From contig NC_135358.1 in assembly GCF_051622035.1 (NCBI RefSeq), forward strand, positions 25,076,501-25,140,500: a stretch of DNA of 64,000 bases, written 5' to 3'. Both the position numbers and the translations under genes were made by a program. Under the pieces are notes generated by a model, which was given only the letters and a program-made list of their open reading frames with translations, was not told the origin of the DNA and made no database searches. Position 1 is the first letter of the stretch, and each line of letters starts with the position of its first letter. Below are positions 32,747 to 63,621 of this stretch, piece by piece. This DNA comes from Arctopsyche grandis. Taxonomy: Eukaryota; Arthropoda; Insecta; Trichoptera; Hydropsychidae.

Positions 32747-32849
32747 TTTAATCTGAAATTTTAAATAATTATATTTTAAACTTTTAATTTGAAATTTGAT
32801 CAAAAACACATAATTTTTTGCTGGTTTTACTACATTTCCCATATTTATT

Positions 32850-35934: not shown

Positions 35935-38900
35935 ATGGAATATGTAGCAACTTTGCGACTATTAAGGATAGCCGTGGAGCGCCAAGATGGGGGCTCCGCT
36001 ATTAGTTCCTTGCAATATGTCAATTCTTTACTATCCGAACAACTCACGTCATCCGTCACAGGTTAGAACTTGTCCACCTTTTATTTGTCATGTGAAAATG
36101 ACCCATATACCCTAGTTAATAAAGCTTATAATCGCTAGTGTATTCCATTGTTTTATTCATGACATCAGTGTGTACTTTATGTTAAGTGGTTCAATTTTCA
36201 CAAAATTTTCAGTTTGAATTAACTCATAATTACTCTTTTAGTTCATTTCATAATTATTTTCAGATTATTGTCAACAAATTTCAAAAGGATATCAGAAAAT
36301 ATTTATAAACTGTAACTTTTTCAACGATCGAATTAATGAGTTTTAAATATACATATATACAAATAAATATATGTTTGGTAATTTAAAAAAAATGTGTACT
36401 CAAATTACAAAAATAAATCAGTCACACATTTTTAATACATATAATGTAATAAAGGTACAGCTTCAGTTTCGGTTCTGCTTTTTTACATGATAAAATTTCA
36501 AATGTAGCATGGCCCCTTCATGTGTGCACAATTTTCACCTACATATGTACATTCTATATTATAATAGATATCTATTTTCAGATTTGGCAATATCAAATTT
36601 ATTCACGTCACAAGATCAAGAAAATCCTATGACTTTAGTCACCTTCATCCAGGGAGTGTTTATCGATTCTGTTTTTCGAGAAGCTGTGTGTGAGACTTTC
36701 AAAATTTTCGACATATTTCTCCGGAGCGAGTACAAAATGAAAATGGACTTGCACATTGATGATATTGTTAATGTGAGCGCTGTTTATAGTTAATGATTAT
36801 CTATTTATGATAGTTGCTAGGTAGCATAATAACTAGCTGGTTCGTTGTTTTGCTCGTCCGCTATTTGGATGCTTTTTTCGTAAATATTGTCGGTTAATGG
36901 TGTCGTGCTTTGCATATTGTGTAGAGTTATTGGTGTTGCTTTAATTTTTGATTAAAATTTTTGCAATTGTGATTAAATACAGTGGTTAAACTGATTTCTA
37001 AGGTTATATTTTAAAGATAATTTTCACTTGAAAAAAAAAAAAAAAAGAAGAAGAAAAAAAAAAAAAAAAAAAAAAGTTCTTTTGTTTCTTCAAATAATAT
37101 TCGTTTGGCAACGAACGTGATCAAACTGATTTCTGAAATTATATATTAACTCTCGAACCCAGAGCATATTTACAATATTACAGCATAATGCAACATTGTT
37201 AAACAAAAAACTATTTATTTCATACATATTTTTGTGCGAAATTTTGAGAATATTCTCTTATTTAAATTATAAATTGTGACGCTAATAACTAATAATACTT
37301 AACAATGATTTGCTATAAATGCAAAAGTGTTGTGTTGTTGACTAATTATGTGCTGTGCGAGCTTTGTGAAGAACCTTTCCACCATGATTGTGTGGGGATT
37401 TCGGAAACAAAATACAAAAAAATGACGTCAAAGAATAAGGAAAAATGGCGATGCGTTTCTTGCCGTATCCATCCTAACCCCCTTCCGCCGTCTCAGTCCT
37501 CATCACTAATGCTCAGTTCTCAAGATTCAGTCATCAGTCCTCAGCCATCTTTATTTGATATACTTAATGAAATTAAATGCTTTCGAGCAGACTTTAATAC
37601 CATGAAAAATGAGTTTGAAAACATAAAATCTGTAATCACAGACATAAACAATAAATTATTCACAATAGAGGCTAAGTCTGATGAATTTGATGGGAGACTA
37701 ACCACTGCTGAAAAGAAAATTTCCTGCTTTTCTGATGTAAATAAAGGTTTAATTGAGGCGCAAAATACTATTGTTGAACTGAAACAAGAAAACAATCTGC
37801 AAGATCAATTCTCTAGAAAAAACAATGTAGAAATATCCGGCATACCTATGAAAAAGGGTGAAAATCTAGTGTCTATATTATATGACTTATGTGCTGTCGT
37901 GGGTCACAAATTGTGCGACACAGATATTGACACCATACACCGTGTGCGGCCGTACCCGTCCCAGGGCGTTGCAGGTTCACAGCAACAGCAACAGCGAGAG
38001 GGCAACAGCGATGTGAGTGTGCGCACGTCATCAGTGGTCGTACGGTTCACTCAGCGCCGTCGTAAGGACCTGCTGATGGCGGCCGTGCGCGCCCGCCGCG
38101 GCATCACCACCAACGACATCAATATTCCAGGCCCGCCCACCACCCTATACGTAACGGATCACCTTACACCAACGAATAAATTATTATTGAAGCGAGCACG
38201 CCAATTGAAAACTGAATATAACTACGCCTACTTGTGGGTTAAAGATTGCAAGATCATGATTAGAAAAAAGTGCGAGCTCCAATATCATACAAATCTCAAA
38301 AGAATCAGATCTTTGCAAAATCAAATGACTAAGTGCAATATTAAATTTTAATAACCTAATAATTATCTATGCATTTATTGTCTACTGGTCTGCATCACAT
38401 ATTATAATGTATGTGCAAACAATTATGTACGTATGGCTATATAATTTATTATTTTTATTATTACTATATAACTATGCTATTTACATATATTTTACTCATA
38501 AACTAAAAAAGGTACGAGTTCATTTTTATATTTGTGTCCATGTATACCTTTGCATTTCAACTGGTATCACCAAGGATGGTTTGCTTAATAATTCCATATC
38601 TTTATCTGTGTATGCAGTTATGTGTATGTTTATATGCATATATCTATTTTCATTTATGCATATGGATATTTATATTTATATCACTACGTGCTCTATCTAC
38701 TTCCTTTTTTACAATGTCTTCTAATCGTCTTGTCATTTATTATCAAAATGTCAGAGGTCTCCGAACTAAATCTGACTCTTTTCTTCAAAATGTATTAGTT
38801 AATAATTATGATATTATCTGTCTATCAGAAACTTGGCTAAATGACTCATTCAATAATAGTGAGTTTTTTGATGCCAGATATCAGGTGTTTCGACGTGACA

Positions 38901-41900: not shown

Positions 41901-44900
41901 TTACATATATTATTTATTTACTTTTTGTGTTTTTTATACCTATCTCTGTACATCCTGTCTGTTGATTTTTCAATTAATAAAATAAAATAAAATAAAATAA
42001 AATAACAATTTTAAATTAATTTTCTTTTATTACAGGTGAGTTTAAGAATTCTAAAGAGTGCTTGTACAGCCAAGGTAAAAGAATCTTGTCTTACAACGTT
42101 GATAGTAATCGCCGGAGGCTCTTGGTCAGACACGACCAGTCGAATTTTAGAAGTAATCGTTATCCATTTCGAAAAGAAAAATGAAAAGCCAACAGTGATG
42201 GCAAAAGAATATGAACTTGCTGGTGAATTAAATATTTATTTGATATCTGAACTTATTTCGAAAAATTTTGTGAAATTTATTTTCTTCATAGGAATCCGAA
42301 TTAACGATCCGTATTATACATGATAACGTTTCTTTTATATTTTGCTGATAAATTGAGAGTTAAATGATAATTGTTTAAGGTATACTTTGTCACAATCATC
42401 CGGAACAAGTTGGCAATCATTCAGAAGATATTGGCAAGTCAATTCTTCAGACGATAGAAGAGTACATTGAAGGTAAAGCTAAAGTGTCGTTTCCATTACT
42501 CGAAGGGTGCTTCAAAGGTTTTTCCGAATACCTTTTTAACTTTAGTGAAAATTACCAGCTAATTTATAAAGGAATCAAAATTTTTTCTGATTCGAAAGAT
42601 CAAAAGAGAAGAGGACATGCCAGAGGTGAATTTTCATCTTACTTTCGAAATAAAAATCGATATGAATTTACAATTATTATTTTTTGTACAGCCGCAATTG
42701 ACATCATAACACACCACGGTGTACATTTCCAAGATTGGTTAAAAGACGATAGAAGATATTGGCATCCACTTCTGTTACGATGGATGCATCATTCTAATCG
42801 TGACGATAGAAAGACAGGTTGTCGAGCGCTTATTTCATACTATAAATATGTTGGAAACTCATTACTGATTAGTGATTCCAGTGAAAACAATTCAGCTTGC
42901 CTACAAGTAAATAATAATCTACTCATTACATAATAAAAATATTATTAAAAATTAAAAGTTTTATCATTACATGACATTGCAGTATTTTATGTCGCATTTC
43001 AAAACAATTTTATCAGATAAGCGTGCTGACGCTGATATCAGCTTCAATTCAAACTCGTACGAAATTAATATAACACTGAAAGGATTCGCCACGTTTATAT
43101 CTAGTTGTAAAACGCTTTTCAAAAACGAAGAGTTTAAAGAAATCGCTGAAACAATTACGCAACGTGCACTTTCACTTTATAAAACAGACAATAATGTGCC
43201 TTTACCAATATCAGAAACAGCCAATGAAGAAACGACTGGACGAATCGAAGAAGTATGTAATATCTTACAAACCTTTGTGAATTAATAAAACTTCTAATGT
43301 CTCAATTTTGATTTTCATACATATGTACATATTTAAATTTCAACTTATCTTCTATAATAATATCTGTTCTTAAAATCCCCTTTTGCTGTGTAAATTTAGT
43401 CGATTTTGTATAGTTTTCATATTTAAACTATTTTTATATTTCAGCTATGTAATCATATTGAAACTCTCACTGTGATGAACATTAATTTGGATAACAATAT
43501 GGAAATGCTTATTTTTGCACTTATATCTGATTTTCCCAAGTGCCTTCCTCATAGACATTACTTTGTTACAAATGCTTTAAAACGATCTTTATCTGTGATA
43601 AATATTAAGGTATAGTTAGTATACGCTAAATTATTATTCATATGAACTGAATATATTTGTAAATTATAATAATCTTCCACAGATAGTAGTTTCGTATTTT
43701 ATCAATGAAAGCTGCAAACATTTTGTCTCGTCTTCATTGTATTGGGATAGTGAATCGTTTCCTAATAACAATTTCTTAACATATGAAACATTCATGCCAC
43801 TGTGGAAATCAATCATGCAAGTTGATCAAAATACTACTAATAATAATGCCAGACATGTTTATGATGAGTTTATTGTAACCATATTGAAAATATTACCAAA
43901 TTTAGATCTTTCAACGAAAATAATTCCCATGGCAAGTAAATTTCTTTAATAATTACTCTTCAAATGAGATTTTATTTAATTTATATAATATATTTCAGTC
44001 TAAACTGAGTAATGATGTGGATGAGAGTGAATTTTCAAATATTGATTCATTCGAAACTCCAGAATATCCACACGATTATAAATTTTTCACGAACGTGTGC
44101 GATTTAACTTGCGCTGTTTTATCGTTCAAATGGACTACTGAGTGGTTTATACAATGGATAGAACCAATTCTATCGTTAATTCTAGAAGGGCGGCAGAAGT
44201 TTTTCAACGCAATAGGATACCTGAAAGTGTTAGAAGTTAGTTTAAAACTAATAAAAGATCTCAATAAAGAACAGATGATTTCTTTAATTGAATCAGAAGA
44301 GTTGTCAAATATTGGACAAATTATAATTGATTTACTGAAGGTAACGCTGTTTAGAATATTTAATTCTAATTTTCATTTCGTTGCAAACATTAAATATGTA
44401 TAAAATTAAATTCAGGATCTTACTATCACTAACGGCGATCGACTTTTTCAATTGCGATCGGCCTTAATTTTTCTGCAAACTCCTCCACAAATACTAAATG
44501 ACGAACTGATTAAGAATGCCACTGATGCTTTTAAGGTAATCAATACTTGTGTTCTTATATACATATACTTACTTATGTCATTAATTACTTAATGAAACTC
44601 TTTAACAGATTGTATTTTCGTTGGGAAAAACGAATCTTAATTTAGCTGTAGATGCTTTGGATGTGCTTGAGGAATGGGATGTACATTTGTCGAGGAATAT
44701 GTTCAAATTGATTTGCCACAAGGTATCACATTTCTATAAAAAGATTAATTGTTATAGAAAGTATGAAAATTTATTTTATTTTTATTGCATACATAGGTTC
44801 TACCAATACTCAATGAGTATCTTTGTTCTACAAGCATATCAGAAATGAGTAATCTAGAAAAGAAGAATTCTTACAAAGCAAGGCATTCGAAACCGAATAA

Positions 44901-47900
44901 AGTATTTCACGATGGAATGAGCCCACAATTAACCATGTTTCAACATCGTATTATGATATTTTTAGGTTTTTTATTTAATAAATTTATGTACATATATGCG
45001 TTTACTTCGATTTTAGTCAAAACATTATGATTAACAATATTTTAGGGAAACTTGACTCTTCGACGATAAAAACATTGACCTCTCTGGAATGCAATGAACA
45101 AGTTTTACAGCAAGAGGATAAAAATCTACAACATTTCACAAAAAACTTTAAACTATCACTTCCGTGTCCAAATCAACAAAATTTATTTGTAAATTAATAT
45201 AAGACATTTTATACTTCAAATATGTATTCTGTAATATATAATAATAACACGACATATTTATTTTTAATACAATAGATTTATATAGATAGTTTGATTCCGC
45301 GTGTGAAAGATTTGTCTCTACACAGCAGCAATCGCGATACAAGGATCACAGCTTGTCAGACCATCCATTCGATAATCCTCATAATGTATGGAACAGGTTT
45401 GCCCTAAATTTAATTTTAAATATCGAATAGTAAAATAGTACATTCAATTAATATACATTCGGTTGATTTTACACAGGTGTAACTTTACCAAAGTCTCATA
45501 GATCATCGTTTGCTAACGTGCAATCAGAATTGTATACTGCTTTGTTGTATTTGGCTGCCGATCCAGATGAGTCCATCTCGAACATGTTCGTTCCACTGTT
45601 GAAGCAGACCTGTCACTGGTTGTCTATCGTCAATGACGGTTCATCCATTGAAATGAATAATTTTATATCTGTTCTTTTTGTATGTTGCGTCACTGCATAT
45701 TTAAATAAATAACATCCTGATAATGTATTAAATTAATGCTTTTTTGTTAGGAAGGAAGTTCTCATCCATCTGATAACTTAATTCAAGACATGTCTTGCGA
45801 AGCCATTAAAGAATTCATTGCGTGGTGTATAAAAAAATCTTCAGCACAAATGTTGAAAGATTTGCCGCAAAGCATTTCTTACATTTTAAGAACATTATGC
45901 CAGATGATGCTGCATCCAGATGGTGATAATATTTTTTTTATTGTGGAAATTGTTTTATATTTTATGCAGAATTATATTTTAGACGAAATCTTGAAAGTTA
46001 ACATTTTAATTGAAAATTAAATACATATTTACTTAAATTAAAGCAAACTTTGTACATACATGGTAGTATAACATTATGCCAAAATGTCAGTTTTTTAATA
46101 TAACGTCGCTCAGATGAGATCTACTGGATATTGAGCAAATTTGTGGAACTCGAGATGTTTTGTGTTGGTTTAATTGCGTGCGATTTATTTTTGTGGGACT
46201 ATTCGAAGAAGAAAGTGTATCTTCATCGAACTCGAACTATCCAGTAGTTGAAGGATAACATACTAGCAGAAATTCAACGAATTTCAGAAATTATGCAGTG
46301 TTGAGCTCACCCGAGTCACATCATCATGTAAAAAATGTCTTTGTAGCATAATGCTATGTAGTTTGATTTTATTTATCTAGTAAATATAATTTTGAAGTGC
46401 TTATTTTCAAGATAGCAGTCGTTTAAGGGCGAAAACACACTAAGTGGGACGTGGTACGTGTTTTTTTTTAAGATACTTTCAAACATGCAAAATAAACACA
46501 GCCCCCCTAGCCCATATTCATGGTACACAGTCCCAAAAATCACCACCTGGAGTGTTTTCGGTGATATTTTATCCTTGTATTTATCCTTGCTTGACAGTGA
46601 TCGATAACGGTGAATCCCATATTTGAAGAAATTTAGGAGAAACTTGTCGGTTGCATATGGATATGCATTCACGTGCAACCTCCCAAAAATATTCATTCTG
46701 CATGTGCACAGCGGGAAGCCAAGGACACATGACGTCCCATCCAGTGTGTTTTCGCCCTAATTGTTTCCGATCTACTCGTTAAGTTCATTATCAAGATTGT
46801 TGGAGTATTTTAATAGAATAAAAATGGAATTTTCAGGTCATAAGAAGTATGGGGCATACCTTGTATTCAGGCGTGCAATTTCACAACTGTACGTGCTCGA
46901 TTCAGCCATCGACAAATACCTGCCCGAGTTGCTCTACAGTGCCGTGAAGAGCATAGAATCGATGCGCGACAATTCGAGCTTGACGCTAAAATGCACGGAC
47001 TCCCAGAGCGATCTGGCTATGAAAGTATTGAAAGTGATCTTGCAATGTCTCGAACGAAAAATCTCCATATTCGCAAAGCCCAGCGCTATGAGACGGAGAC
47101 CACCAAAGTTCGGAGACGCGACGATTCCACCCATATTAAAATGGCTATTGTCACAATTGAAAAGCGCCAATCGTTTACTGGCAAATCGCTGTTTCGAAAC
47201 TTTCTCGAGGATTTCCTCTTCACCGCAGAAATTCGTAATGGAGCTGATAGAAAAAGACGGGGTGAATCATGTCATAGATGAGTACTTTAAATATGACTCG
47301 TATCTTTCCAAAGACGTCGACATGGAATGTATGAAATTAAACGACTTCATTGTATTTGTACGCAGTCTTTATATTACGCTTGATATTTGTATTATAATTG
47401 TGCAAAACAATTTACTAACATCCGATGTGTCATTCATGGATACGTTCAACGTGGCCGATATGTTTCTACAAATTGATGCCTTTCTAGTATTTACATCAAA
47501 ACGAGATATCCACAATATCTATGACTCTTTATCTAATCCGAACACCGAAATGGATCATAGAAGTACTAGAATTCAAAAGTACTTGTTTGAAAATTTAATA
47601 TTTGAAACCGTTTGGAAGTTTATCGATTTTGTATTCCTCGCATCGACGGATGATTCATTGGATTTTGACACAATTATGAATACAATTAATGATTCAGTGT
47701 CGCGTGCCATTGTATCTTGGTTGTTCGATTCACACAAGTTGGCGGTGTTTAAGAGGACTGTCGACCATCGTATATGGAGCGTTCAGGAGTTTGTGTCTAA
47801 TTTGAAGAATAAAACGTGCAATGTATGGTGCAGTGTTGAAAATCTATTAGTAGATCGTTTGCAGCAATTGTTCATTCAATTTAAAGAAGATCCTGCTAAC

Positions 47901-50900
47901 GAATCCAAATCAAACTATGATTGTTTAAATGTACTGAGTGAAATAATATCGTTGATTGATCCTCAAAAAGCCAGCAAGCTCTCATTGGAACTTCACAACT
48001 TCGATCTGTCGCTTTTGTTCGATCTGCTATTTATAAAAGAGAGTAGCGGCATCACAATGATAGGAGAATCTTCGATACATTCATCTTCTTTCGTAAGATC
48101 TCTCAACAATATATTAAACTTCATTTTGAAATCAAACCGTATCAATCAAAAGACTCTCATTAGTGTTTTAACGAACAGTACATGCTTGTATAACGTCAAT
48201 AAAGAGACAACTTCTACAACATACGGTGAATTTTGTTTTGCCAAATTCGAAGATGGGATACTATCGTACATTGTTGCCAACGCTAAGAGTTTCTTTACTA
48301 TCTGTAAACAAAAGTTTTTAAATAATGATAAAAATGCTATCATCAAATTGATAGAAACTGTTTTAAAATGTACATGCGAGAATAATATACGGAATGATGA
48401 ATTCCTTAATAATCTTACATCTTTCATTATTGAAGTAAGTGTTTTTTTTATAGCTGTAAATGATATATAATGTTGAATGCGCATATTTCTCTATATATAT
48501 AATATGATTTTTAGATTTGGCCTTTCTTCATAGAACAGGGTGTAACAGAGTTTGAAACTTTGATTCGAATGTATTCACTCCTTGCTATGGCATTACCGAA
48601 TCCACTAAATTTGATCGGTCGTCGTGAATGTACTTTAAATGTATGGTTATTCGATTCATTGAAAAATGAAAATGTAGATTTAAAATGGAAATCGAAGTTG
48701 ATTGTGCTTCTGCCGACTGTATTGAAATCGGGTTGTTCAGAAAACTGGTATTCTGAAGTTGCTGCGTATGTTGTATTAAATTTTTTTCATTATTTCTTTT
48801 TCATGGTTCATTTGAATAAACTGTACCTATTTATTTCCAGGAATGCAGTCGAAGCTTTGAGCGAAAACTTTCCACAGAGTTGTTATGAATTCAAAGAACA
48901 CTCTAAAGCCCGAGCAAAATACCTTTCGGCGATTAAAGCACTTTTAGAATCAATGGCAAATTCGGGATCGTTCATATTGCTAGAATGTATAATTAAACTT
49001 ACCGCAGGTATACTTAGAATACAAAATCAAAAATATTAATACATAACACAATTGACCAGTTTTAATTAAGTCCACTACATTTCGAGAAATATCTCGCAAA
49101 CATTAAATATAATTGCTTTTAACGATATTTAAAAATACTGGTGGCTTGTAATACGTTTATTCTGCTTTACCGAGATTCTGGATATATCAAATTGAAATAA
49201 GTAATAACAATTTGTGAATTAAGTCAAACAGAAATAGTGTTTTTTGGAACTGAAAATTGCCACTTTAAAACATAACAGCTCATATCTTGTAGATTTTGTA
49301 TGTTTTCTTTGTTAATTCTAGCCGACCGAGATCACATTTGTGATGAACAAATCACGCACAAACTAAAATCTTTTATGGAGCGTCTCACGAGCGAGGAACA
49401 ACTCGCTGTTTTACAAGGAGTTTATAATATAGTACGAGGTTGTACCGAACCAAATTTGCAATACAATATCATCAATAGATTTATGATACCGCTGTTGTTA
49501 GATTCATCAGTCGACACTCTAGAAGTAATTATGTGTTTGATCAAAAATTTCAATAATTTAACTGTGTGTTTTAGGATGTAAATATATGATTTTTTTATTT
49601 TACAGAATTTTTATGCTGCGAAAATTTCGATTATATTAAATAGTTTCGATAAAAATGTTTCGACCGGTTCCAACCAATTTGCTGTCGAAAGGACTTACGT
49701 CGATTGGATTAGTGCCTGTAAAATAATAGAAGTCATGTTTGTTAAAGTGAGTACACATGCAAATATTTAACATAGAAGTGATTCGATATTTTGATGATTT
49801 TATTTTGTTTTTAGATACCAATGGAAAAATTAAACTCACCAGAATCGAAAATTGCTCAAAATTTAAATGTCAGTAGTCAGGGACAATTTGCTCAGATTAT
49901 TAAGGATGTGTTCACGAAAGTTTTTCAAATTCAAAAAAAGAAAATTCAAGATGTTATGGCAGAAATCGTTAAAGACAGCACTAAAGAGTTTTTAAGGTTG
50001 ATACAATATTTCATGAAAAATGGATACAAAATGAATTATTATTATATTCTTTATAATACCTGAGCTAAAAATTTTAGATTGTCACATTGTGCGGCTTATA
50101 AATGTCTATATGCCATAACAATAGCTAGACCTAAAGAGGAATTAAAGTTTTACACGTTTCTAATCAATTCTAAAGGATCCAATTGGGAAGGAATGATCGA
50201 TTGTAATAAACAATACCTATTTCCATTCAAAACTAATAAAGTAAAATTATAATAGATCTATATATTATATTTAATGAAAATTGATAATATTTTATGCATA
50301 TTAAATTTATCTTCAGGTAATAGATTCAACACTGAAAAATAATTCTGTTCCGACAAAACAAATCAATTCCAATCGTGGTCGGGTTTCTACATTTAATATG
50401 CAAAATTCTATCAATACTTTAATGGCGACAAACACCTCGTCGATCGAAAATACAAATGTTGGCGGCGTACAACGTTTTTTAAGACAAACCCTTTCAGAAA
50501 ATATATTGTCATTCGACTACAATCATGCAATAATAGCTGACAAACCAGACTTCAACAGTACCCTCATCGAACCGGTACACTTTATTTTTTTTCATTTTGG
50601 AATACATGTATGTTTTCAATGTTGTTTATACAATACAATACATGTATGCATTGTATATGTATATACAACAGTGATATTTAAGTAGATTGGTTTTGTAGGA
50701 AAGCGATATCCATATGATTTCGTTGGATTTGACCAACGACGAATTGAATAATCATGAGTGTATGGCGACAGTTTGTCGACTCGTACAAGATCTTGATAGG
50801 ATTACTTCGGATATGTTTTCACCTGAACAGTCATCGAAAGGGGACTGCTCTTCGGAGTGGGTCAAATTTATAACTGACGTTCTGAGTGATCGGACGAGAC

Positions 50901-53900
50901 ACAGAAATGTTCGGTTATTTTTAGTGCAGGTGAGTCTTATTATTTGGTGTCACGAGAAATCGCTCACGGACTTAACACTCAACGTCATATCGCTCAAGCT
51001 ACAAATCGTTCGCGGACATTACACTCACAGATGAATGGCTCACGCGACAAATCACTCACGCAGCATTACGCTCACTGAATAATTCGTACGTACAAAAACG
51101 TTATTTTTTACACAAGAATTATTCCAAAATTCAATTAAACGCATCGTGACGAATTAACACACTATCCTATCACATAAATAAATAAAACATATACAAACCA
51201 GTTTAATCTCAATTTATTCACAAAGTACAGAGTTTATTATAAAAAAAAATAATTCTTTGTATTAATAAGGATTTTCGTTCAGTTACGTTTGTAATATAAG
51301 GCCAACATTTGTTTCGATTTACCTGCTTAAACGATAATGGTGGGTCGATACCTGGAAAACACCATGTAATACATTTTTATACGCAGCGAACAATTAACAA
51401 TGAACTATAATTATTAATTAATTATCATGTCTAAAGAAAAATTTTTGTAACTGGTTTGTATATATTATATTTTTGTGTAGAAAATAACGTTTTTGTAGGT
51501 ATGAATTATTCTGTGGGCGTTTTGTTCCGTGAGCGTAATTTCGCGTGAGCCATTTATCTATGGGTGGTATGTCTGTGAGCAATTTGTCGCGTGAGCGATA
51601 TGTCGCTGAGTGTTAGGTCCGTGAGCAATTTGTCGCAGAACCTTATTATTTTACATATAATTTGCCTTGCAATTAATACTATCGTTGTTTGTATTATTAT
51701 CATTATAGGTTGTAGACAACATGCGTGATGTCTTTAAGAAGTATGCAAATATGATGTTTAAATCCATTCTTTCCGTAATACACGATCGATGTACTTCACA
51801 TGCTGACGGAATCAATCATCTAGATATTTGTCTTGTAATTAAACAATTTTTTCTTATGTTCAATTTGACAAGGTCGAGAACACAGTGATTTTTATCATGA
51901 AAATAAAGTCGTTTAAATGCTTAAAGATATCCTTAATGTGTTTTTGAACTTGATCCGTTTCGAATTATTTATACAAAAGTAAAATAATTTCATATATTGT
52001 AAATTTTTGCAGTTGTTATTATTATTGTCTTGGAGTGATCTTGTTTTACCACAACAGCTGACTGATAAAAATGATGCTTCTTCGATTGTTGGCTTAATTA
52101 TAGACGAAATTAGCCCCTCCAATGTTGATGCAGACATATTTAGACGATGTTTAGAATTGCTCAAGGAAATGCTCGCCAAATGGGGTGCCAATTTGAATAT
52201 CCAGTCTGAATTAATATTGAAAAAATTAGAAGCAACAAATAAAACTGAAACGAGAAAAGCTGGAATACAAATATCCGCTGCAGTTCTCGTAAACAATATT
52301 GCATTATGGGATAGTCCTGATACTTTTAAGAACTTCAAATACGCTATATTAGACTGTTTAAAAGTCAGCGATAGGATCACGTATAAGTCATGTGCTGAAG
52401 TAGTCGGACTTTCACTGAAAATATTATCCAATTCTCACCCAGGAGTTTTTGCAGAAAAAGAATTGAATATCGATGATGACGGCGGAGATACTCACTTTGC
52501 TGTAAAATACTTGAAGAAAATCCATAAATTGTTAAATAAGTGGTATGAAACACAGTTTGAAAAGTTTGTTGAATGCTTATTTAACATTCAGAAGCATTTT
52601 ATCGAAGTTTCCAACGAATCGCTCGTTTCTAAGACGATAATGTCAACATCTAAATTACCTGCAAAGTATAAGAATATGTGTCTGAAAATCTTATTCGATT
52701 CAATGCACATATTAGACACGACTACTCTATATAAAGAATTGAAAGCTTTTAATTTCGATGAACTTCTGAGCAATCAGGAAACTCGCCTATTGACTCTTCA
52801 TATTATAAATAAAGTCTTCAACTACTTGAAAGTCCCGGAAGTTGTATCTCTAGTGAAGGATATCAGTTTCGTGTGTGACTTGACTATACACAATGATGTC
52901 CAATGTAGAGATACTGTCTATGAGATATTAATGAAGATTTACAATGGTCAGTCAACATGATATGTCAATAAGGTTTAGTGTTTTATATTATCTCAAATTT
53001 GTACTGATTTCAGAACTGAGGCCTATGAACTTAGAACAATGCACTTGGGAAGAAATGAAAGATTGCATTGATTCAAATCGTTCGAGTGAAAATTCTGCAA
53101 CGTCTAGAAAAAGGGCGGCAAATTTTGATGAAAAGTGTTTATTATTGGACGATGTGCAAATTAATTATGCTGGGCTTGTATCATCCCAGGATCGAAAGGC
53201 GATAAAATTTGCCTTACTACGTGGATTAGATGACGATGATCTTCAACTGAAAACGAGAATATACTCTTATTGGAGTGATCGCTTTTCTTCCGAGAATCAT
53301 ATGCATGATAGGTTTGAACATTATGTACATTTTGAATGGTTCTGTGATTATTCCGCAAAAAGCCATCTAAAATCTCGATCACGGAACATCTGGCACCCGA
53401 AAACTTCATCAATCTACACGAAATATTGTACTAACGAGAATTCCAGTGCCAGATATTCCGTATTCGCGATTTTTGCGGCAACGATTGTCGTGTGCGCGAT
53501 CGCAATTTGCGCAATAATCCGTTTACCATTTTGATGTCTTTTTACAGATGGTCGGATATTGTTCGAGAATTTTTAGCTGATCAGATCGGAAGCGATAATA
53601 GATTTCTAAACCGACTGACTAAACTTGCACTCGCCTCGTGTAAACAGAATGTCAATTTTACCGTGTCAAAGCTATTCGATCGTCCACTTGAAGAATGTAA
53701 CTACACAGATTATAAGTGTGTTATTTATTGTTTTTAGTATTGAAATATACGCACTTCTATGTAATGTTTTTACCAAACGCCAATTTTTTTTCAGTTGGAA
53801 TGATAAGAAACAAACTCAGAACCGCACTATTGTTCCATCATTTGCCGAAACACTCAACACACAATTGTTAGCATCGACAGTGCTGCACCAGAGTACAAGA

Positions 53901-56900
53901 GATGGTTGTATTAGTGAAAAAGTCATTAAACACTTGAATACCTTCGTAAATACTAATTCAAAGTCTTTTTATAACGAAAAGAATACTTTCTTACAAAATA
54001 CATTGGAGAGTCTCAACATAACACTATGGGACAAAAGCACAATGTATGAATTTCTGCATTTTATTATAATTTCATTTGAATAATGTTCGAATTTTTATAT
54101 TGTTTTCGATATTTTTTAAGACGTGAAAATCAAAATAAGTCTGACCCATCTGATGGTTTTACCCTAGCAATGAATAGTTCTTTATTATTTACGTTGGAAC
54201 CTCAACTCATACATCGACGCACCTATAAGCCATTACCTGCGTAAGATTTAAATATATTTTAGTATGTATATTTTTAGAATATTTTAAAATTATTGTTTAT
54301 TTATAGTCAAGATGATCAGTATAAAAAACCAATACATGACGATTTAGAACGACGATTGAGGAAAAAGTTTATTGCCGATAAAAATCAGCAAGCGATAAAA
54401 TTTTCCGGAATAGGTGAGACATTGTTGTGTTGGTAGTGGCGTAGCAAGGGTAAATGAGGCCCGGGGTAATTATTCTTTTTTGCACCCCCATCCCTTCTAA
54501 TTTCATCATATTTGTTCACATATAAAATTTCCTAAGAAAAAAAACACAAGACACATGTACACATTATAATATATATGTATATTATAGACGTTATTTTATG
54601 GCGAAATGATATCGATTTGTAAAACAGTAAACTACAAGAATATCTGTATTCAATTAATTCGTAGTATTTTCGAACGTTCAGAGACAAAATATAATATATT
54701 AGTGTGTATAAAAGGTATCGTCTCAAATGCAATTTCCGCTCTCACGGTCAGGCTCAAATTTGGCGCCACATTAGGCCGAAAACACACTGAGTGATACGGA
54801 ACGTCATGTCCTTGGCTGGCTCCCCGCTGTGAAAGTGGGTGTTCCCCAAATCGAATTCGGGTGTAGTTGCACGTATAGAGTGCATATTTTTCTCCTACAT
54901 TTCTTCAAATATCAGATTCACTGTTATCGATCACTGTCAAGCTAGAATAAATACAAATATAAAATATCACCAAAAACACTCCAGGGGGTTATTTTTGGGA
55001 TTGTGTACCACGTATATGGACTAGAGGAGCTGCGTTTTTTTCCCATGTTTAAAAGTATCTAAAACAAAACACGTACCAAGTACCATTCAGTGTGTTTTCG
55101 CTCTTATTGTTTTCAATACAAAGCCTAGAAAGATTGCATGTTCAACAGACGGATTATTAAGAACATCCATAAACTCGAATGCTTTTGGCGACTTTGGCGA
55201 TGAATTTGAATTCGTCACCAGCTCACATTGTACTTTGCGAAGTGAATCTTAAATATGACAATAAATAAAAATATGTTATCCCTTCGCGACGCCCCCAAAG
55301 CTGATGCACCCTGGTTATCGCCACCTCTTGCTATGTCACTTAATATGTACAGTGTAAATTTGCGCAAAATAAAAATAACATTTTGTTTTTAATGAAGCTG
55401 CTTATAAAAAGAGTCAAAGTAAAAAGAAACTAACCGAAGAGAAGCCGGTTGAAGCTTTCAAGCGATTCCGAGACGGCGATTATCCTGATATACAAATAAA
55501 TTTGGATGATATTTTAACCCCACTTTTGGAATTAGCATCGGTGATTCTCAAATTTACGGTTACACGATCGTTGTGCGCTTGCATTAAATCAGTGCTACTC
55601 AAACTATGGTCCGCAGCCCAGTACTGGTCCGTGTACCGGCGGTAGCAGGTCCGTGCACAAAGAAGTAAATAAATTAAAACAATAGCTTACTATTACGTAT
55701 ATATTAATTAATTTGGAAGATTTACTAATTGATCTGACTACAAATGAAGAATTGAAAAAGTGTTTTGAAACCACAACTTCACTTGCGTCCCTTTAGATCA
55801 AATTGAAAGCAGAATTCTTCCCATATATTTAAGAATATGCACTGAAACTCTTTTACCTTTACAGGACTAGTTTCTGAACCATTAGTTTAATAAAGACAAA
55901 ATATCGTAATAGTGTAAATATTCATAAACGTGTGGAATTAATTGTCTTTGATAAAACCACGACTGTATAAGTTATCTAATAACAAACAAGCTCATGTCTC
56001 TTTAGTTTTTTTTTTTCATTTTCATTTTTCATCTTTGTCTAAGTACATACATATATGATATATAGATATTGTACTTCTTTGAATTCAACAAAATAAATTT
56101 TACTACTTATATTTAATATTATTTTTATTTGTTATATGAACAAATTTTCACTCATATTCATATATAACTTTTTTATTTAAAAATATGATGCTGGTCCGTG
56201 AGAATTACTGAAAAATATATGCTGGTCCGCCAACTGAAAAAGTTTGAGTAGCACTGCATTAAACCGCGCTCGATCATTAGGCTCTCGGCGATACAAAAAC
56301 TACAAACATCATCGAACAAAAAACAAACCCGAATCACGTATAGTTTATTTGTTGTGTATTATATAGTTAAGTTGTAGTTTTACTATATATTTTATTTGTT
56401 GTAATCGTGTTGGCGTGATGTTTGTAGTTGCGTATTGACGATCGCGATTTTAGTAAGCGCGCAACGGTCTGGCTATCATCATTTACCTTTGAAGTAAATA
56501 ACAATAAAATAATAATCGAACTAATTGCAACATATTTTTCTTATAGCGTGACGAAATCATAGCTAAAGATTTCTTCATCGTACTATTTAATTCAATTAAA
56601 AATCATCTTACTGATTTTTTAAATATAAATCAAGGCGACAGTGTTTCAACTTCTGCCAACAACGATTGTAAAACATTGAAGAGTGTGAAAAATTTCAATT
56701 TAACCTCGGCATGCTCTGCCCTCATAACTCTGAAACATGGGATCAACGTCAGTTTGCCGTCTCCACTTGCTGGAGCACTACTTCAAATATGTCGCTCCTG
56801 TTTAGAACATTGTCACGACGTTGACCAGTTTGATTATATCGTCGGCAATGCTGCAAAAACGTGTGGAGTTGAATGGCTCGGAATATTAATACTCGAAGAG

Positions 56901-59900
56901 AAGAAAATGGGTTCTGAATCGGATAATCATGAAAATCCTGCTAAAAAGTGAATCAAAATTTGTTTTTGTTTTTCCGTTATTATTTTCAATGTTTATTTTT
57001 TAAATTTATTACCTATTTTTGTTAGAGCGAAAATCGACGTAACCACTGATGTTCATTTATCACTGGAAGACGAAATATACAGACTGAAATATACTTATCA
57101 ATGGGATGAACTCCAAAAGAAGTGTGAAGAAGCTTTAGATTTGACGGATGTTAACGACCTATACGTCTCATATACTGAAGGTGAAATTGAATTTTGGTTC
57201 ATAGTTATTATATATTTGTTTTTAATATACAAACATATTAAGCCAGCAGCATGGCTCGTTGGTTGCGTTGATACTAAGCACCTAGAGGTCATTGGGTTCG
57301 ATCCCATAAGCTAACGGCGATGGAAAAGAATTTATTCTGAGTATAATCTTTAATGCCGCTGGTCAGACTTGAAAATTTGTGACTTCAAGTCGATCGTTTC
57401 CTATCAGAGTTTGTCAATTGATCTGATTTCATCGTTTAAGCGGTTGCTCCATCAAATTGTCAAAAACCATCCTACCCACTATGTCACCACTATTTGAATA
57501 TGATTTCAAAAATTTATTATAATTTCATTTTTTCGTCATTTCAGCTTTTCCCAAGGGGGGGGTGGTCAAAATTTTTGACTAGTAAGGAATGACTTTCTAG
57601 GGGGGGGTGTATTATATTAAAAAAATGAGTGTATATGAATTTTGACTATTTTAATCATTTTTTATTTATATATTTTTATCAATAAAATTAATAGTAAATA
57701 ATTTAAAAAATATATTAAGATATTTGGATATAAACGCATGTTTATTAAGTACAAAATAATCTCCTGAAAATACATTGAACGTTTATTTTTAAACTAAAAA
57801 ATATAAAATTAGTATTAAATAAATGTTAAAAACTATAACTTTGTTATTATAATATCATTTTATTCATAATAATACATTAAACAACGAGTATAGTCCCATT
57901 CAAATCTAGGGGGGCCTCCTGAATGATGATGCCCCTGTCTATAAGATAGATCAGAGCATCGTAACCTCTGGATATTCGTGGCACACATTGTTTACGACTC
58001 GTAGAGTTTGTCCGCTACGTACATACATATGTACTTCATCAGCAGTCGTTAGTTATTCCGTATATGCATAGGGACAAAACACTAATTAACATCGGTTTTC
58101 TCCCTCACACGCGATCTCACTCGCACGCATTAGGCCGAAGTGCTGTTCGGGGAACACATATTACCGCGGTACACAAGTTACGATGCTCTGACATAGATGT
58201 CTCGCTAATTTTCTTATATATAGTATTTATATTATGCTTATGTCTGGTCATAGAGACGCGTTAGAGTATTCTCTAATATCATTGTGGATATATGTAAATA
58301 AATAAAAATAAAATATATTATATTACTTGTCTGTGAGTACTAATAGATTTGATTTTTTCAGAATATTTCAAATGCTTCGCTCAACTATCAAATTGGGAAA
58401 GCTTCATTATGACAATTTCCAATCAGTACAATCAAATGGATACTATGACCGGCGCTGAAGAATTATTCAATTACAATCATCTATGGAAAATTCCATGGAC
58501 TAAAAATTTCGTTTTACCAATGTTTTTTGATGCCAACATTCACCGACTGTCGTTGACATATCCGGTGAAAGAATTTACACGGATACAACAAGACGAAAAA
58601 ATGGAATTTCGAAAACACTTGGAAAATTTCGATAAATATCTTAACAACTGGAGTGGTGAATTTTATCCTCAATTGTTTTATTTGATGTGTAATATATGTA
58701 TATAAAAGTGTGTGGGATTTTCTATTGATATAATTTTTAGGCGATCCTGAAAAGGCTAAATACCTGAACACGAAACTATCGCCAAAGATGGCCAGTTGGA
58801 AAGCGATGTTTAAATTTGATGCAAATACTCTAGAACTCATCAAACATAGTCTGCAATGGTTAAAACGCTCCTGGACACAAGAATATCTGTCGAAAAATAA
58901 TAGAACGATAATTTTCAACACCAACAGTGAAATTATTGATGACAGTTTGAAAAATATACAAATGGTTAATATTTTTTAAATAAAATTGGTTAAATATCAA
59001 ACTTTCGTTGAGAATTACTATTATTTTTAGATGGGAGAAATTTATAGTTTTGTGGAAGTATCAACAGAGTGTTTCAATATATCTCGTCGAAACGTCGACG
59101 ATTTGTGTAAATCCTTTCAAAGAATTCTATCAACTTGGAAACACGTTTTGCCTATGTTTAAAGACGATTTGGTATTTTGGGATTTGAGGTTGACGCACAG
59201 GTTAAATACTTTTTAAATATTTTTTTTGTAAATAATTTTAATCGTATCGATTATATAAATATTATAAAAATTTTAGATCGATTCTTACATCACGCGTACA
59301 GAAACATTTATCCAACATTGCCGATGAGTCTGATCATGACGAGCAAAAAAGTTTGAAAGATGTCATTAATGAAATGACCGCCGTACAAAAATTAGCTGAG
59401 CATCGATTGATCAAAGTTGCCGTTGAACATTCAAACTATTTATTAGCTAATAAATATTTGCTTAAGATGAAGTCATTCAAGTAAGATCATATGATTTGTT
59501 GACTGTTAAAATAAATTGAATTTGTTTTTAATTATAATTTACTTTTAGATTTTTGGAAAATGATGTGTTTGCATTCGATATAGAGTTTGTAAAATCTTTA
59601 AAGTTACAAGCATTAAACGAGAACAACTTGAACGCGAAAATAGATCTTCACATCAGATCTTGGGAATTTGGGGGTATATATGCGTATTTATACATCTGTT
59701 AATTTATTGAATACTTATTGTGATATTTACAAATTACATTTTTCATTACGTTTGTTACTTTTATAGAAGAAAAAAGGGCTCAATTAGCCGAAGATGATTA
59801 TCCACAAATATTTCAAAATTTTCTTAACAATGCAGCTAGTAATTCCTATGAAATTTATTCGATTTCAAATAAATTAAACGCAACTGAATTAAATACTCTC

Positions 59901-62900
59901 ATTAAAAGGCTTAACATAGTCATTTCTGGTAAAGGAATATTTGATGAATCTATTATCGGCATCGGTTGGTTTGAACATTGTTATTAAATTAAAATTGAAA
60001 TATTTATTTTACTACAAAAATATATTTCTACGCTTTAGTTGAAGACTCTATGCAGTTGAAATCGGTTCTGGATAAATACAGTGTTAAGTATTTTGAAAAA
60101 TCTATAGAAATCGCCAGAAAGTGTGCACTTCAAAGTGAATCCATTAAAAGCACACGTGATAATAATCGCCCTGAAATTAAATCTCTATGTGGCGCCTACA
60201 TGACAATGGCTAATTACTGCAGAAAAATGAAGAACCGAGAATATGAATCGAAAACATTGGAAGAAAGGTCAACATTTGCTCGAAATGTTGTGTCAAGTAT
60301 CTTACATGCGATGAAATACGGCGATGAAGAAGCTAAGAAAATGTTTCCAGTATTATTGCTCGAATTGAAAGAGTCGTCAGACGACAGTGAAATCAATCAA
60401 ATATTTAAAGACGGGGTATTTCAAACACATTTACACGTGCACTTAATAAAATATACATATGTATTTGTGTATCTTAAATAGAATGGTGTTTCAGGTATCT
60501 GATATTCCGAAATGGTTATTCATACCGTGGGTATCTCAGCTGTTAACCTATCTACCCATTTTGAAAGAGTCATTGCTCGATTTAGTGGTGGGCTTAGCTG
60601 AAGAATATCCACAGAGCATTGTGCATCAGTATCGTGTATCTCGGCGGACTTGGACTAAGACGAAATCTCCCGATTTCAAAGAGTTGGATTCCATCATCAA
60701 ACGGTTATACAGCAATAGAAATTTATATATTGTTCTATTGAGATTTTATATTTAATTTGCGTTACTTTAATTATAGATTAGATCTGATTTTATTAAAAGA
60801 TGATCAAGAAATTCTAGTTAAGGCTTTAGCGGGCGTCTGTGAACCATTTATAATATTTAAAATGCATCTAATTAATATTACTAAAGCTCTACAGAGTGGA
60901 GGTTTGCATTTACATACATATATTATAATATACTTAATACGATATACTTGTGTTGAAGAATGTATAATTGGTTGCTTTACTATTTTTAGATAAAGATCGA
61001 TGGGATACAGCTTTTGAAGATTTGTTTGAAGACATATTCCCCGATGAACAATCTAATATTAAAATTCGAGGCTCAAGGTTTAAATGTATCCTTGGAAATA
61101 GATCTTATTTGAAAGAAGCTTGGAAGTCTTGTAAATATTATTCGGTGAAGATATTTATTATTTTTTGCTACTGTTAGTAATTTAAATTAAATATTTACAG
61201 GCGCAGATGAAACCAAAATCCCTCATGTCTTAGAAAAAATCAAAAATCTGATAAAAATTTGTGATCAGAACCAGAAGAAACCGATGTCGAATTTGATCAG
61301 CATTGGCGATTTCAGTCCGTATTTATCTTCGTACGGAGACAGCGATGTGAGCATGTTGGATGTTTTCGGTCAGTATGGAGGCTTCGACGAGACATATTCG
61401 AAAATTAAAAATCATATCAAAATCGCAAAGTTCGAAAGCGACGTAAGAATCGTTCCAATTCAATAATACATTTGTATTCTACTTTTAAAATGTGTTATTT
61501 GCTGTTAGGTTTATATGCTCGCATCGATGCGTTGCCCAATCCGCATCAATGTTGTCGGATCAGATGGTAAAAAGTACACGTTTTTAATCAAACGAGGCGA
61601 AGATTTGAGACAGGACGAGCGAATTCAACAATTATTTGATTTGATGAACAATTCTCTTGGTTCGTTTCAAATGAAAATAAACACATACAAAGTGATTCCG
61701 TTATCTTGGGACATGGGCCTCATACAGTGGATAAACAATTGTATTACACTACGGGAAGCTGTGTTTAGAAAGCCTAAAAATAGAGGCAAGTTTTAAATAA
61801 ATCTTATTTTATAAATTATATGTATGAAAAATTGAGATTCCAAAAAACTGACATTTTCCACTCCCGGTACTACCGAAAGTATGAAAAACGTATGTTTTTG
61901 CTTTTAAATACTGTATACATATGTATGAATTCAAAATATTGTCAATTTAAAAAAATACATGGATTTTCGAAAAAATCAGAAGATGAGACTTTTCATTATT
62001 AACAATCAGTCACAAATCAATATATGTATTCAGAAATAGTCTTGGATACGATATTATCAGCTTGTATACTTTATCTTTGATTTTAAATTTATGATACCCT
62101 TGCTTTCGATAGCAAGTCAAAAAGGATATACAGGACATACATTGTGTGTAGAATGTGTTTCTTGCAAATTCGTCGTATATCGAATTTGTCCATAGATGAC
62201 GCTGTTGTATTGTATAATAATTTTATTATAATGTTAAGTGCTTATGTACAAAAGTTTGACCATAGGTGTCGCCTTGGGGCAACCTGTCATGGCACCTATG
62301 GTAGAAATTAATATATAATAAACAAATAAATATGTTTTTAGGAAAACTTTCGAAGCTTAGAGAAGAAAAAGATGCATATGTTAAAAATTTAAGAACCGGA
62401 AGTACACCGGAACAGTATGGATGTTTAGCTAAGAGCTTGAATGTATCTAAACAAATCTACAATCAAACACTTGAAGATCTGTCTAAATATTATCTACGGT
62501 ACATATTAAAATCATCTCACTCATTATATGTATTTCTGTAATAGTTACATAATAATCAAGCACCTTTGTTATTTTAGTGATGAATTATTAGAACTAGCCG
62601 TGTCTCCCGAGAATTTCATATTCATGAGGAATAACTTCGAAACGACTTTGGCTCCTATGAACATTGCACATTGGATATTAGGTATATATGTACTTATAAG
62701 ACGCTCTGTTATACTCGACATACATGCATGTATACAAAATTTCTATTTTATTCAGGAATTGGCGATCGGCACATGTCTAATTGTTTACTATCAATGCGTA
62801 CTGGTAGCGTCATAGGAATCGATTTCGACAGTGCATTCAGTGTATCTACACAAGTTTTACAAGTGCCAGAACTGATGCCGTTCCGACTCACACCACAACT

Positions 62901-63569
62901 GATAGGAGTCTCGGCTCCTCACGGTGTAACAGGTATTAACTTTTGGAATCAAAACTCTCATGTTGGATTAATTTTTAATTTGGTACAATATGTACATCGT
63001 TTTTCAGGTAATTTGAGACGATTCATGATCCAGTCTCTGGATGCGTTCAAAGAAAACTCAGAACTGCTTCTGGCAGCTATGGAAGTCTTTGTGCGTGAAC
63101 CTACCATCGATTGGTTGCCATACTTGAGCAATTCTACTTCTAATTGGTCGCCACGAGATAAAGTATACATTTCATATTGCACACATCGATCCACTCCTAT
63201 CTGCATTTATTGTAAATGAGGTTTTGAATTGTTGATAGATAAATCAATGCAGGAGAAAATTATTCGGAGTGATCCCGGCTGTTATCACATTGGAGGATCT
63301 TCAAATGAGAACCACGAATACAGAGTTCGTTGAATATTATTGTGCCGCTGTTAAAGCGTCTCTAGATTCATTCCGGGATTTGATAGACGCACCCGATACA
63401 GTTTTAACTACCAGTCAACAGGTGATGAAGATTAGTAATTATCAATTGCATACATTCTTTTAAGAGTTTAAACAAATTGAATTCTCTTTAGGTGAATTGC
63501 CTTATAAATCAAGCGACAGATGCAGGAATTCTTTCGATCACATACAACGGCTGGGAACCATGGTTGTAA
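35935..63569 (+). CDS. PRKDC: DNA-dependent protein kinase catalytic subunit (DNA-PKcs), 53 exons, 4,122 aa
   Basis: Key enzyme of non-homologous end joining, recruited to DNA ends by Ku. Exons: 35935-36061, 36582-36772, 42036-42222, 42380-42625, 42692-42906, 42983-43252, 43445-43609, 43683-43931, 43999-44340, 44416-44535, 44609-44722, 44797-44965, 45046-45188, 45276-45396, 45477-45679, 45751-45922, 46837-48434, 48515-48765, 48841-49007, 49322-49524, 49606-49746, 49815-49996, 50078-50240, 50317-50574, 50699-50929, 51709-51834, 52013-52946, 53014-53311, 53548-53715, 53795-54043, 54121-54240, 54307-54413, 55398-55540, 56547-56947, 57026-57180, 58362-58655, 58741-58964, 59031-59200, 59277-59480, 59549-59673, 59767-59964, 60039-60415, 60495-60703, 60777-60901, 60990-61130, 61201-61442, 61509-61785, 62342-62498, 62578-62681, 62756-62932, 63008-63162, 63239-63421, 63492-63569. 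Phases agree throughout. N-terminal and middle parts are helical repeats; RLSHCAAYKCLYAI and DGDYPDIQINL match conserved DNA-PKcs blocks; FAT, kinase and FATC follow. Two introns appear to be GC-AG. Poly(A) signal at 63616. Confidence 0.93.
37305..38351 (+). CDS. Retrotransposon ORF1 protein with N-terminal PHD-type zinc finger
   Basis: 348 aa. Residues 3-53 hold a Cys4-His-Cys3 arrangement (CYKC, CELC, HHDC, WRCVSC), a PHD-like finger common in ORF1 of CR1-related elements. Residues about 85-165 form a predicted coiled coil with regular hydrophobics, ending QDQFSRKNNVEISGIP, a block found in many insect LINE ORF1 proteins. A Gln run (QQQQQ) interrupts the C-terminal nucleic-acid-binding region. 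The protein likely coats the element RNA. Function is inferred from the family. Confidence 0.85.
   Translation: MICYKCKSVVLLTNYVLCELCEEPFHHDCVGISETKYKKMTSKNKEKWRCVSCRIHPNPLPPSQSSSLMLSSQDSVISPQPSLFDILNEIKCFRADFNTMKNEFENIKSVITDINNKLFTIEAKSDEFDGRLTTAEKKISCFSDVNKGLIEAQNTIVELKQENNLQDQFSRKNNVEISGIPMKKGENLVSILYDLCAVVGHKLCDTDIDTIHRVRPYPSQGVAGSQQQQQREGNSDVSVRTSSVVVRFTQRRRKDLLMAAVRARRGITTNDINIPGPPTTLYVTDHLTPTNKLLLKRARQLKTEYNYAYLWVKDCKIMIRKKCELQYHTNLKRIRSLQNQMTKCNIKF
38714..41566 (+). CDS. Retrotransposon ORF2: endonuclease and reverse transcriptase
   Basis: From the ATG of MSSNRLVIYYQNVRGL the protein is 950 aa; an upstream in-frame ATG at 38534 adds a hydrophobic stretch that looks like read-through of leader. 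The N-terminal apurinic-type endonuclease shows QNVRGL, LSETWLN, GGGVIIAVKN and LGDYNLP. The reverse transcriptase shows YRPISKLSVISKIFEK, QHGFFKGRSVETNL, TDFSKAFDKINH, GVPQGSHLGPLFFLLYINDI and the catalytic YADD. The tail SLGFLLRSTKPF...VRSHLEFASIIW is typical of CR1/Jockey-group elements. No frameshift or stop is seen, so it may be active. Confidence 0.92.
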   Translation: MSSNRLVIYYQNVRGLRTKSDSFLQNVLVNNYDIICLSETWLNDSFNNSEFFDARYQVFRRDRDYSLHNQIFGGGVIIAVKNNLPSVIQNNWLTSTEDLWITITTKFFKLNICTVYIPPGNSHQTLLVTHLNKVSDLITNYPEDRFILLGDYNLPTIDWTKYDSNLHLFPSNCINFSSLSFTQFLSYNKLYQYNYLSNTNNRILDLAISSFPLYISRADSTLIHEDSHHLSFCISIIYNKSSPLNYNYNKTFLFRKADYATIIPILSDINWNSLLSNLNIDLACKKFYDTLQNIIECHVPFTLKSKRTKYPPWFTSSLIKIIKEKNKFHKKFKIYSNPLDYQSFSLLRARIKKYSLICFRNYISLIQNNIKTNPKSFWSYINSKKNTSSSYPSVMYYGNKSASHGSEICTIFADYFDSTFNRDSTINLSISNTDTSSCNLSTFHFDLSTVLSHINSLNVNLGAGCDGLPSFFLVKCAVPLSLPITILFNLSMSNGKFPDYWKLSYITPIFKKGDKNLIENYRPISKLSVISKIFEKIIYNFLFSNFKNYIIPEQHGFFKGRSVETNLLNFTSTLTSYMDKRIQIDVVYTDFSKAFDKINHNLLLNKLWSLGIRGNLFRWISSYILNRHQIIILNGFRSSLRHIPSGVPQGSHLGPLFFLLYINDISYIFKHSFILLYADDLKIYKPIYTIDDCHKIQEDLDRFSIYCLNNDLFINLEKCSILNFTRNKSIITNQYQLNHSILNTSSSIKDLGVILNNKLDFSEHISFITNKAFKSLGFLLRSTKPFNDPYVLKLLYFSFVRSHLEFASIIWSPFYLSHINCIEKVQLKFIKSLRYLFPTYTHSTVSDILKILSFNNLSVRRRHSDAIFFFKLINGFLDCSDLLNKVNFRIPVRYPRRVTLFSLDPFNTNSQKYFYLQRVYRMFNGELNEVDLFGISLHQFRSNIKRILTD
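46425..46760. mobile_element. MITE with GGGCGAAAACACACT ends, copy 1, in DNA-PKcs intron 16
   Basis: Ends TTAAGGGCGAAAACACACT and the complement of TTAGGGCGAAAACACACT. It is about 336 bp with no coding frame. The second copy (54771-55106) lies in intron 32 in the opposite orientation and has the same length. Confidence 0.8.
50946..51642. mobile_element. Foldback-type element with ~145-bp inverted ends of GCTCAC subrepeats, in DNA-PKcs intron 25
   Basis: A 697-bp element starts GGTGTCACG and ends GCAGAACC, flanked by an exact 9-bp duplication TTATTATTT (50937-50945, 51643-51651). Each end has about 145 bp of inverted repeat composed of degenerate 14-16-bp units such as GGACATTACACTCACA and GACAAATCACTCACGC. 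The centre is AT-rich and non-coding. Same architecture, GGT/ACC termini and 9-bp duplication as the element at 3842-4371. It begins 16 bp inside the intron. Confidence 0.85.
53336..53529. mobile_element. MITE, GGTAAACGGATTATTGCGC family, copy 5, in DNA-PKcs intron 28
   Basis: It begins ATGGTTCTGTGATTATTCCG and ends GCGCAATAATCCGTTTACC, with interior GAACATCTGGCACCCGAAAA. It fills nearly the whole 236-bp intron and stops 18 bp before the next exon. Confidence 0.65.
54434..55341. mobile_element. Degenerate hAT-like element (AGTGGCGTAGC ends) hosting another MITE
   Basis: Left AGTGGCGTAGCAAGGG with GGCCCGGGG close by, right CTTGCTATGTCACT. The ends are imperfectly complementary. The inner MITE at 54771-55106 splits it. 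It lies in DNA-PKcs intron 32, which is otherwise without features. Confidence 0.5.
54771..55106. mobile_element. MITE with GGCGAAAACACACT ends, copy 2
   Basis: It begins TTAGGCCGAAAACACACTGA, and its right end is the complement of TAAGAGCGAAAACACACT. It shares TGTCCTTGGCT, ATCACTGTCAAGC and ACACTCCAGG segments with copy 1 in inverted orientation. Confidence 0.8.
55590..56256. mobile_element. hAT-type element with CAGTGCTACTCAAA ends in DNA-PKcs intron 33
   Basis: Starts CAGTGCTACTCAAACTATGG and ends TTTGAGTAGCACTG; CTGGTCCG motifs lie in both subterminal regions. The flanks CATTAAAT and CATTAAAC agree in 7 of 8 positions. It is 667 bp with no long frame; GTCCGCAGCCCAG near the end is typical of hAT MITEs. 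Confidence 0.82.
57249..57540 (+). mobile_element. tRNA-derived SINE in DNA-PKcs intron 35
   Basis: The head has Pol III promoter boxes: A box TGGCTCGTTGG (about 57252) and B box GGGTTCGATCCC (57294-57305), with AGGTC before the B box as in tRNAs. It does not fold as a complete tRNA, since the acceptor stem is not paired. A non-tRNA body with CATCCTACCCACTATGTC follows. Confidence 0.65.
57952..58190. mobile_element. hAT-type MITE with CAGAGCATCGTAAC ends in DNA-PKcs intron 35
   Basis: A perfect 14-bp terminal inverted repeat, CAGAGCATCGTAAC and GTTACGATGCTCTG, is flanked by AGATAGAT and ACATAGAT (7 of 8 match). 239 bp, non-coding. Confidence 0.82.
61509..63162 (+). other. DNA-PKcs PI3K-like kinase domain exons (47-51)
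   Basis: These exons encode residues about 3747-4036. The ATP-binding lysine is in FLIKRGEDLRQDERI. The catalytic loop reads GIGDRHMSN with Asp3929 and Asn3934 in place. The metal-binding motif reads GIDFDSAF (3948-3950), so the usual DFG is DFD. PELMPFRL and FVREPTIDW follow as in vertebrate DNA-PKcs. The exon boundary after 61785 uses a GC donor. Confidence 0.88.
63492..63569 (+). other. DNA-PKcs terminal exon, FATC domain
   Basis: It encodes VNCLINQATDAGILSITYNG followed by WEPWL and a stop. Terminal QATD and GWEPW are characteristic of the DNA-PKcs FATC end, which separates it from ATM, ATR and SMG1. Confidence 0.9.
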
Positions 63570-63621
63570 TTTTAATCAAATATAATTTGAATTTATGAAT
63601 ACAATATTTCTTACAAATAAA

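Follow-up and report, generated by a model that had tools for sequence, protein, structure and literature searches.

A 53-exon insect gene that looks like an intact orthologue of DNA-PKcs

Results

Locus organization and gene model

The window, by which we mean the whole 64-kb stretch of DNA analyzed here, contains a long forward-strand gene whose predicted product is assigned below to DNA-PKcs (PRKDC). The coding span extends from 35935 to 63569 and consists of 53 exons that together comprise 12,369 nt, i.e., 4,123 codons (4,122 amino acids and a stop codon). Some 15 kb upstream, a sugar gustatory receptor gene (Trehalose_recp) has exons at 19052–20800 on the forward strand. The Trehalose_recp match is composed of three stretches in the frame 17001–23600 (E value of 8.5e-28), and the family was also matched in two open reading frames at 19052–19474 and 20175–20507. 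To our knowledge, this family is restricted to insects, and its presence in the same window supports the insect origin stated in the original prediction.

Two other features lie upstream of the DNA-PKcs gene. Positions 22830–24800 are occupied by two adjacent tandem arrays with periods of 143/72 and 90, which are GC-rich within an AT-rich window; the second array (period 90) is open in several frames on both strands. A 678–amino acid open frame on the reverse strand (30812–32848), rich in Glu, Gln, and Asn and carrying a 57-bp tandem repeat at 31379–31561, had no match in a Pfam search at an E value of 0.1.

The exons of the DNA-PKcs gene were defined by a dynamic-programming search that combined codon bias with splice signals and reading frame, with long repeat-filled stretches masked. 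Evident DNA-PKcs exons within the window served as the training set for the codon scores. The end points of the search (the ATG at 35935 and the end of the stop codon at 63569) were taken over from the original prediction, which gave no exon list. Two boundaries of the final model were set by hand, starting from the nearest automatic version. This independent search reproduced exactly the 53 exons and 4,122 amino acids that had been claimed for a complete, in-frame gene. The exact codon sum put forward as support for that claim has no value as evidence, since any model built from an ATG to a stop codon necessarily comes out as complete codons.

Exons 1 to 9 are located at 35935–36061, 36582–36772, 42036–42222, 42380–42625, 42692–42906, 42983–43252, 43445–43609, 43683–43931, and 43999–44340; exons 10 to 18 at 44416–44535, 44609–44722, 44797–44965, 45046–45188, 45276–45396, 45477–45679, 45751–45922, 46837–48434, and 48515–48765; and exons 19 to 27 at 48841–49007, 49322–49524, 49606–49746, 49815–49996, 50078–50240, 50317–50574, 50699–50929, 51709–51834, and 52013–52946. 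They are followed by exons 28 to 36 at 53014–53311, 53548–53715, 53795–54043, 54121–54240, 54307–54413, 55398–55540, 56547–56947, 57026–57180, and 58362–58655; exons 37 to 45 at 58741–58964, 59031–59200, 59277–59480, 59549–59673, 59767–59964, 60039–60415, 60495–60703, 60777–60901, and 60990–61130; and exons 46 to 53 at 61201–61442, 61509–61785, 62342–62498, 62578–62681, 62756–62932, 63008–63162, 63239–63421, and 63492–63569. All are on the forward strand. Fifty of the 52 introns have GT-AG boundaries. The other two, at 43932–43998 (donor after 43931) and 61786–62341 (donor after 61785), are of the GC-AG type, and GC donors had to be permitted in the search because of them. An in-frame stop codon is present at 35866, upstream of the ATG, and a candidate polyadenylation signal, AATAAA, is found at 63616–63621, downstream of the stop codon.

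When the search was repeated under 16 settings, 46 of the 53 exons remained unchanged in every one. The model version was returned in 13 settings for exon 2, in 11 for exon 19, and in 10 for each of exons 50 and 51. Exon 18 started at 48539 in 12 settings and at 48515, as in the model, in 4 (both starts are in frame and lie 8 codons apart); its full model version appeared in 1 of 16. Exon 24 was divided evenly, ending at 50574 (model) in 8 settings and at 50607, a difference of 11 codons, in the other 8. Intron 18 was read through in 5 of 16 settings and intron 50 in 6, and an extra small exon at 36242–36311 was added in 8. Because some boundaries are uncertain, the length of the protein may shift by a few residues.

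Exon 28 ended at 53491 in all 16 settings and at the model’s 53311 in none. We set the end at 53311 because positions 53329–53532 are repeat DNA that also occurs at other places in the window and because the alignment with human DNA-PKcs spans the junction; the longer exon, whose extra stretch is repeat DNA, was rejected on the same grounds. By eye, an open frame in 53312–53547 resembled a human stretch, as if an exon had been missed or the frame shifted. This candidate was likewise discarded, since 53329–53532 is part of a repeat family and human DNA-PKcs can be aligned without a break over the exon 28 junction.

On the real span, the gene search scored 1113.5, which is above chance. Of 20 dinucleotide shuffles, 14 returned a model, with scores of 170.1 to 233.6, and 6 returned none, while the reverse complement of the span scored 348.4, in a control that favors the real strand, given that the codon scores derive from this very gene. 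The matches of the predicted protein to human DNA-PKcs are independent of this training.

Domain content and comparison with human DNA-PKcs

A Pfam search with the predicted protein revealed DNA-PKcs_N, CC1-2, CC3, CC5, FAT, PI3_PI4_kinase, and FATC, all above cut-off and in the correct order. The start of the N-terminal HEAT region (DNA-PKcs_N) is encoded by exons 2 to 7 (36582–43609; best at residues 59 to 448; 156.1 bits, cut-off of 26.1). It is followed by the CC1/2 region in exons 15 to 17 (45477–48434; best stretch at residues 900 to 1164; 88.3 bits, cut-off of 26.1) and by the CC3 region, which we take to be NUC194, in exons 20 to 27 (49322–52946; two pieces of 88.6 and 104.9 bits, cut-off of 28.9). 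The start of the CC5 region falls in exons 27 and 28 (52013–53311; two stretches; 199.2 bits, cut-off of 25), with the best stretch at residues 2157 to 2434 finishing at the start of exon 28. Closer to the C terminus are the FAT domain in exons 37 to 39 (58741–59480; residues 3142 to 3272; 30.9 bits, cut-off of 24.2), the kinase domain in exons 47 to 51 (61509–63162; residues 3769 to 4020; 157.9 bits, cut-off of 27.1), and the FATC domain in exons 52 and 53 (63239–63569; 42.6 bits, cut-off of 25.3), which ends with GWEPWL and the stop codon. The C-terminal GWEPW that had been predicted is thus present, at residue 4117.

Human DNA-PKcs (PRKDC; PDB 5w1r and others, 4,128 amino acids) has the same domain order and nearly the same length. 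The insect protein was compared with solved structures in three pieces of 1,913, 1,063, and 1,146 amino acids. At E values up to 0.001, the first and second pieces gave six matches each, all of them to DNA-PKcs (best E values of 4.8e-84 and 1.4e-48, respectively). Among the best 60 of 91 matches to the last piece, DNA-PKcs was at the top (5.5e-95), ahead of other PIKKs by more than 180 bits; mTOR came next (2.2e-38), with its match confined to residues 754 to 1061 of the piece. DNA-PKcs-specific Pfam domains together with human DNA-PKcs as the best solved relative support the proposed identity and completeness, and the gene looks like an intact DNA-PKcs orthologue.

The ranges aligned with the human protein cover 3,124 of 4,122 residues and have 44 of the 52 exon junctions inside them; nine exons (7, 8, 17, 18, 24, 28, 35, 36, and 37) lie mostly beyond. 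The gaps between aligned ranges are similar in length in the two proteins (126/155, 431/454, 89/79, and 281/256), whereas near residues 2434 to 2491 the insect protein is ~44 residues longer (56 versus 12 between aligned ranges). The insect protein also differs in two S/T-Q sites, T2592 and T2607, within the region aligned with the beginning of the human ABCDE loop. The TQ at human T3950 is retained as T3957.

Catalytic residues and motif departures

The ATP lysine, the catalytic aspartates, and the C-terminal end are common to the human and insect proteins. By alignment, K3774 (61590–61592) corresponds to the ATP lysine K3753 of the human protein, and D3929 in GIGDRHMSN (62764–62766) to the catalytic aspartate D3922. 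The metal-binding D3948, equivalent to human D3941, is kept in the DFG-type motif GIDFDSAF (62815–62838). A constant offset of +7 from the human residues had been claimed; it holds at D3922 and D3941 but not at K3753, where the offset is +21, nor at the last residue, where it is −6 (residue 4122 aligns with human 4128).

Two motifs depart from the human sequence. FRDGDYPD (55466–55489, exon 33), the counterpart of YRxGxxPD, has Phe (codon TTC) at residue 2767 in place of human Y2775 and keeps R, G, P, and D, i.e., four of the five named residues of a motif described as invariant across eukaryotes in PMC8549938, where it is presented as conserved and not as what defines the family. In GIDFDSAF, the glycine of human DFG is replaced by Asp (codon GAC), giving DFD. 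This glycine is not counted here as a defining feature of DNA-PKcs. ATR and SMG1 are active kinases even though they have no glycine at this position, and kinase activity is therefore expected, by analogy, of the predicted insect DNA-PKcs despite DFD.

Intron repeats and integrity of the reading frame

At least eight transposons had been claimed for the introns. Of the 13 introns longer than 150 bp, at least seven (2, 16, 19, 25, 28, 32, and 33) gave evidence of repeat DNA, a count that comes near the claim without fully supporting it. Intron 2 carries a LINE in the orientation of the gene (37296–41566, forward strand) with both reading frames open: ORF1 (37296–38351) encodes a PHD finger joined to Baculo_FP_2nd, and ORF2 (38507–41566) encodes an endonuclease and a reverse transcriptase. 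The repeats in intron 16 (46424–46761) and intron 32 (54770–55106) are inverted copies of each other, that in intron 19 (49062–49274) has a copy at 7209–7442, and that in intron 28 (53329–53532) has copies near 3.1, 16.2, 21.8, and 27.0 kb. Intron 25 contains an element with long inverted ends (50953–51635; ends at 50953–51119 and 51469–51635, 81.4% identical). The element in intron 33 (55590–56256) has inverted ends, is flanked by 8-mers identical at 7 of 8 positions, and is presumably hAT-like. Introns 35 and 47 have weak internal inverted matches only and were left out of the count. A tRNA-derived SINE suspected by eye in intron 35 was not confirmed: ARAGORN detected no tRNA in the window, and an Rfam search gave nothing at gathering scores.

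A search for stops and frameshifts indicative of a pseudogene found none in the 4,122 codons of the model, while about 260 stops would be expected from the triplet frequencies of the introns. Over 219 bp, the intron 16 and intron 32 copies share 86.8% identity (76.3% over 355 columns in a longer, looser alignment). If they were alike at insertion, each has since diverged by at least roughly 7%, and at 7% change a coding sequence free of constraint would have gained about 39 stops. A frame that stayed open while the intron copies diverged lends indirect support to the earlier suggestion that the gene is under selection, subject to the assumption that the copies were alike at insertion, as their source copies may already have differed.

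Discussion

With high confidence, we read the locus as an intact insect PRKDC gene that most likely encodes a full-length DNA-PKcs working in end joining. By analogy with other members of the family, Ku70/80 would recruit the protein to double-strand breaks through its HEAT/NUC194 cradle, and DNA-PKcs would pair the two broken ends. The FAT-kinase-FATC head at the C terminus would then phosphorylate DNA-PKcs itself and its partners and may thereby license end joining.

The kinase is common to all PIKKs and the FATC end to most of them, and mTOR, ATM, ATR, SMG1, and TRRAP all appear among the best 60 of 91 matches to the last third of the protein, as would be the case if another PIKK (ATM, ATR, mTOR, SMG1, or TRRAP) had been mistaken for DNA-PKcs. 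We give this practically no credence, since DNA-PKcs_N, CC1-2, CC3, and CC5 all score above cut-off and the first two thirds match DNA-PKcs entries alone at E values up to 0.001; within the Pfam and solved-structure libraries, the searches refute it. A recently silenced gene would also have an open frame, if the LINE in intron 2, with its two open ORFs on the same strand, cut transcripts short or if the change from DFG to DFD killed the kinase. Such silencing is improbable given 4,122 codons free of stops and frameshifts, where about 39 stops would be expected had the sequence been unconstrained since insertion of the intron 16 and 32 repeats (copies alike at that time), and given the activity of ATR and SMG1 without the DFG glycine.

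Of a different kind is the possibility that DNA-PKcs works but that the true exon limits differ at a few places, namely, at the start of exon 18, at the end of exon 24, and through retention of introns 4, 18, or 50 in some transcripts. The 16 settings disagree on exons 18 and 24 and on introns 18 and 50. Introns 4, 18, and 50 each have a length divisible by three and an open frame, but at the splice junctions of intron 4 and of intron 50 the human alignments contain no insert of such size. We consider such differences possible, if somewhat doubtful; they are compatible with an intact PRKDC gene and would affect the length of the protein only. We also see a slim chance that the synapsis and activation core of DNA-PKcs is altered in this insect lineage, as the motif Phe and the DFG Asp might indicate, with the kinase differently tuned or its role more structural than catalytic.

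The original prediction implied that DNA-PKcs is rare in invertebrates. Its absence from Drosophila stands, as an exception; rarity is not supported, as the gene has been reported in other insects (PMC8549938 and PMC6849265). The former cites Dore et al. 2004 for DNA-PKcs in arthropods and Lees-Miller et al. 2020 for its occurrence widely among eukaryotes, and lists mosquitoes, midges, stable fly, and robber fly with the gene and fruit flies without it; the latter describes both DNA-PKcs and Artemis from Aedes aegypti. By these published descriptions, the DNA-PKcs of other arthropods, A. aegypti included, represents the same gene in the same animal class.

The insect gene described here is complete and probably functional, and it adds to a family that is already well known; since DNA-PKcs has already been described across arthropods, the general view is unchanged. 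What the locus provides is one clean insect gene model, as predicted from sequence, for a repair kinase that is absent from Drosophila, and this model may be useful for end-joining or gene-editing work in this species. The Phe and Asp substitutions raise a small, testable question: which residues does DNA-PKcs truly need?
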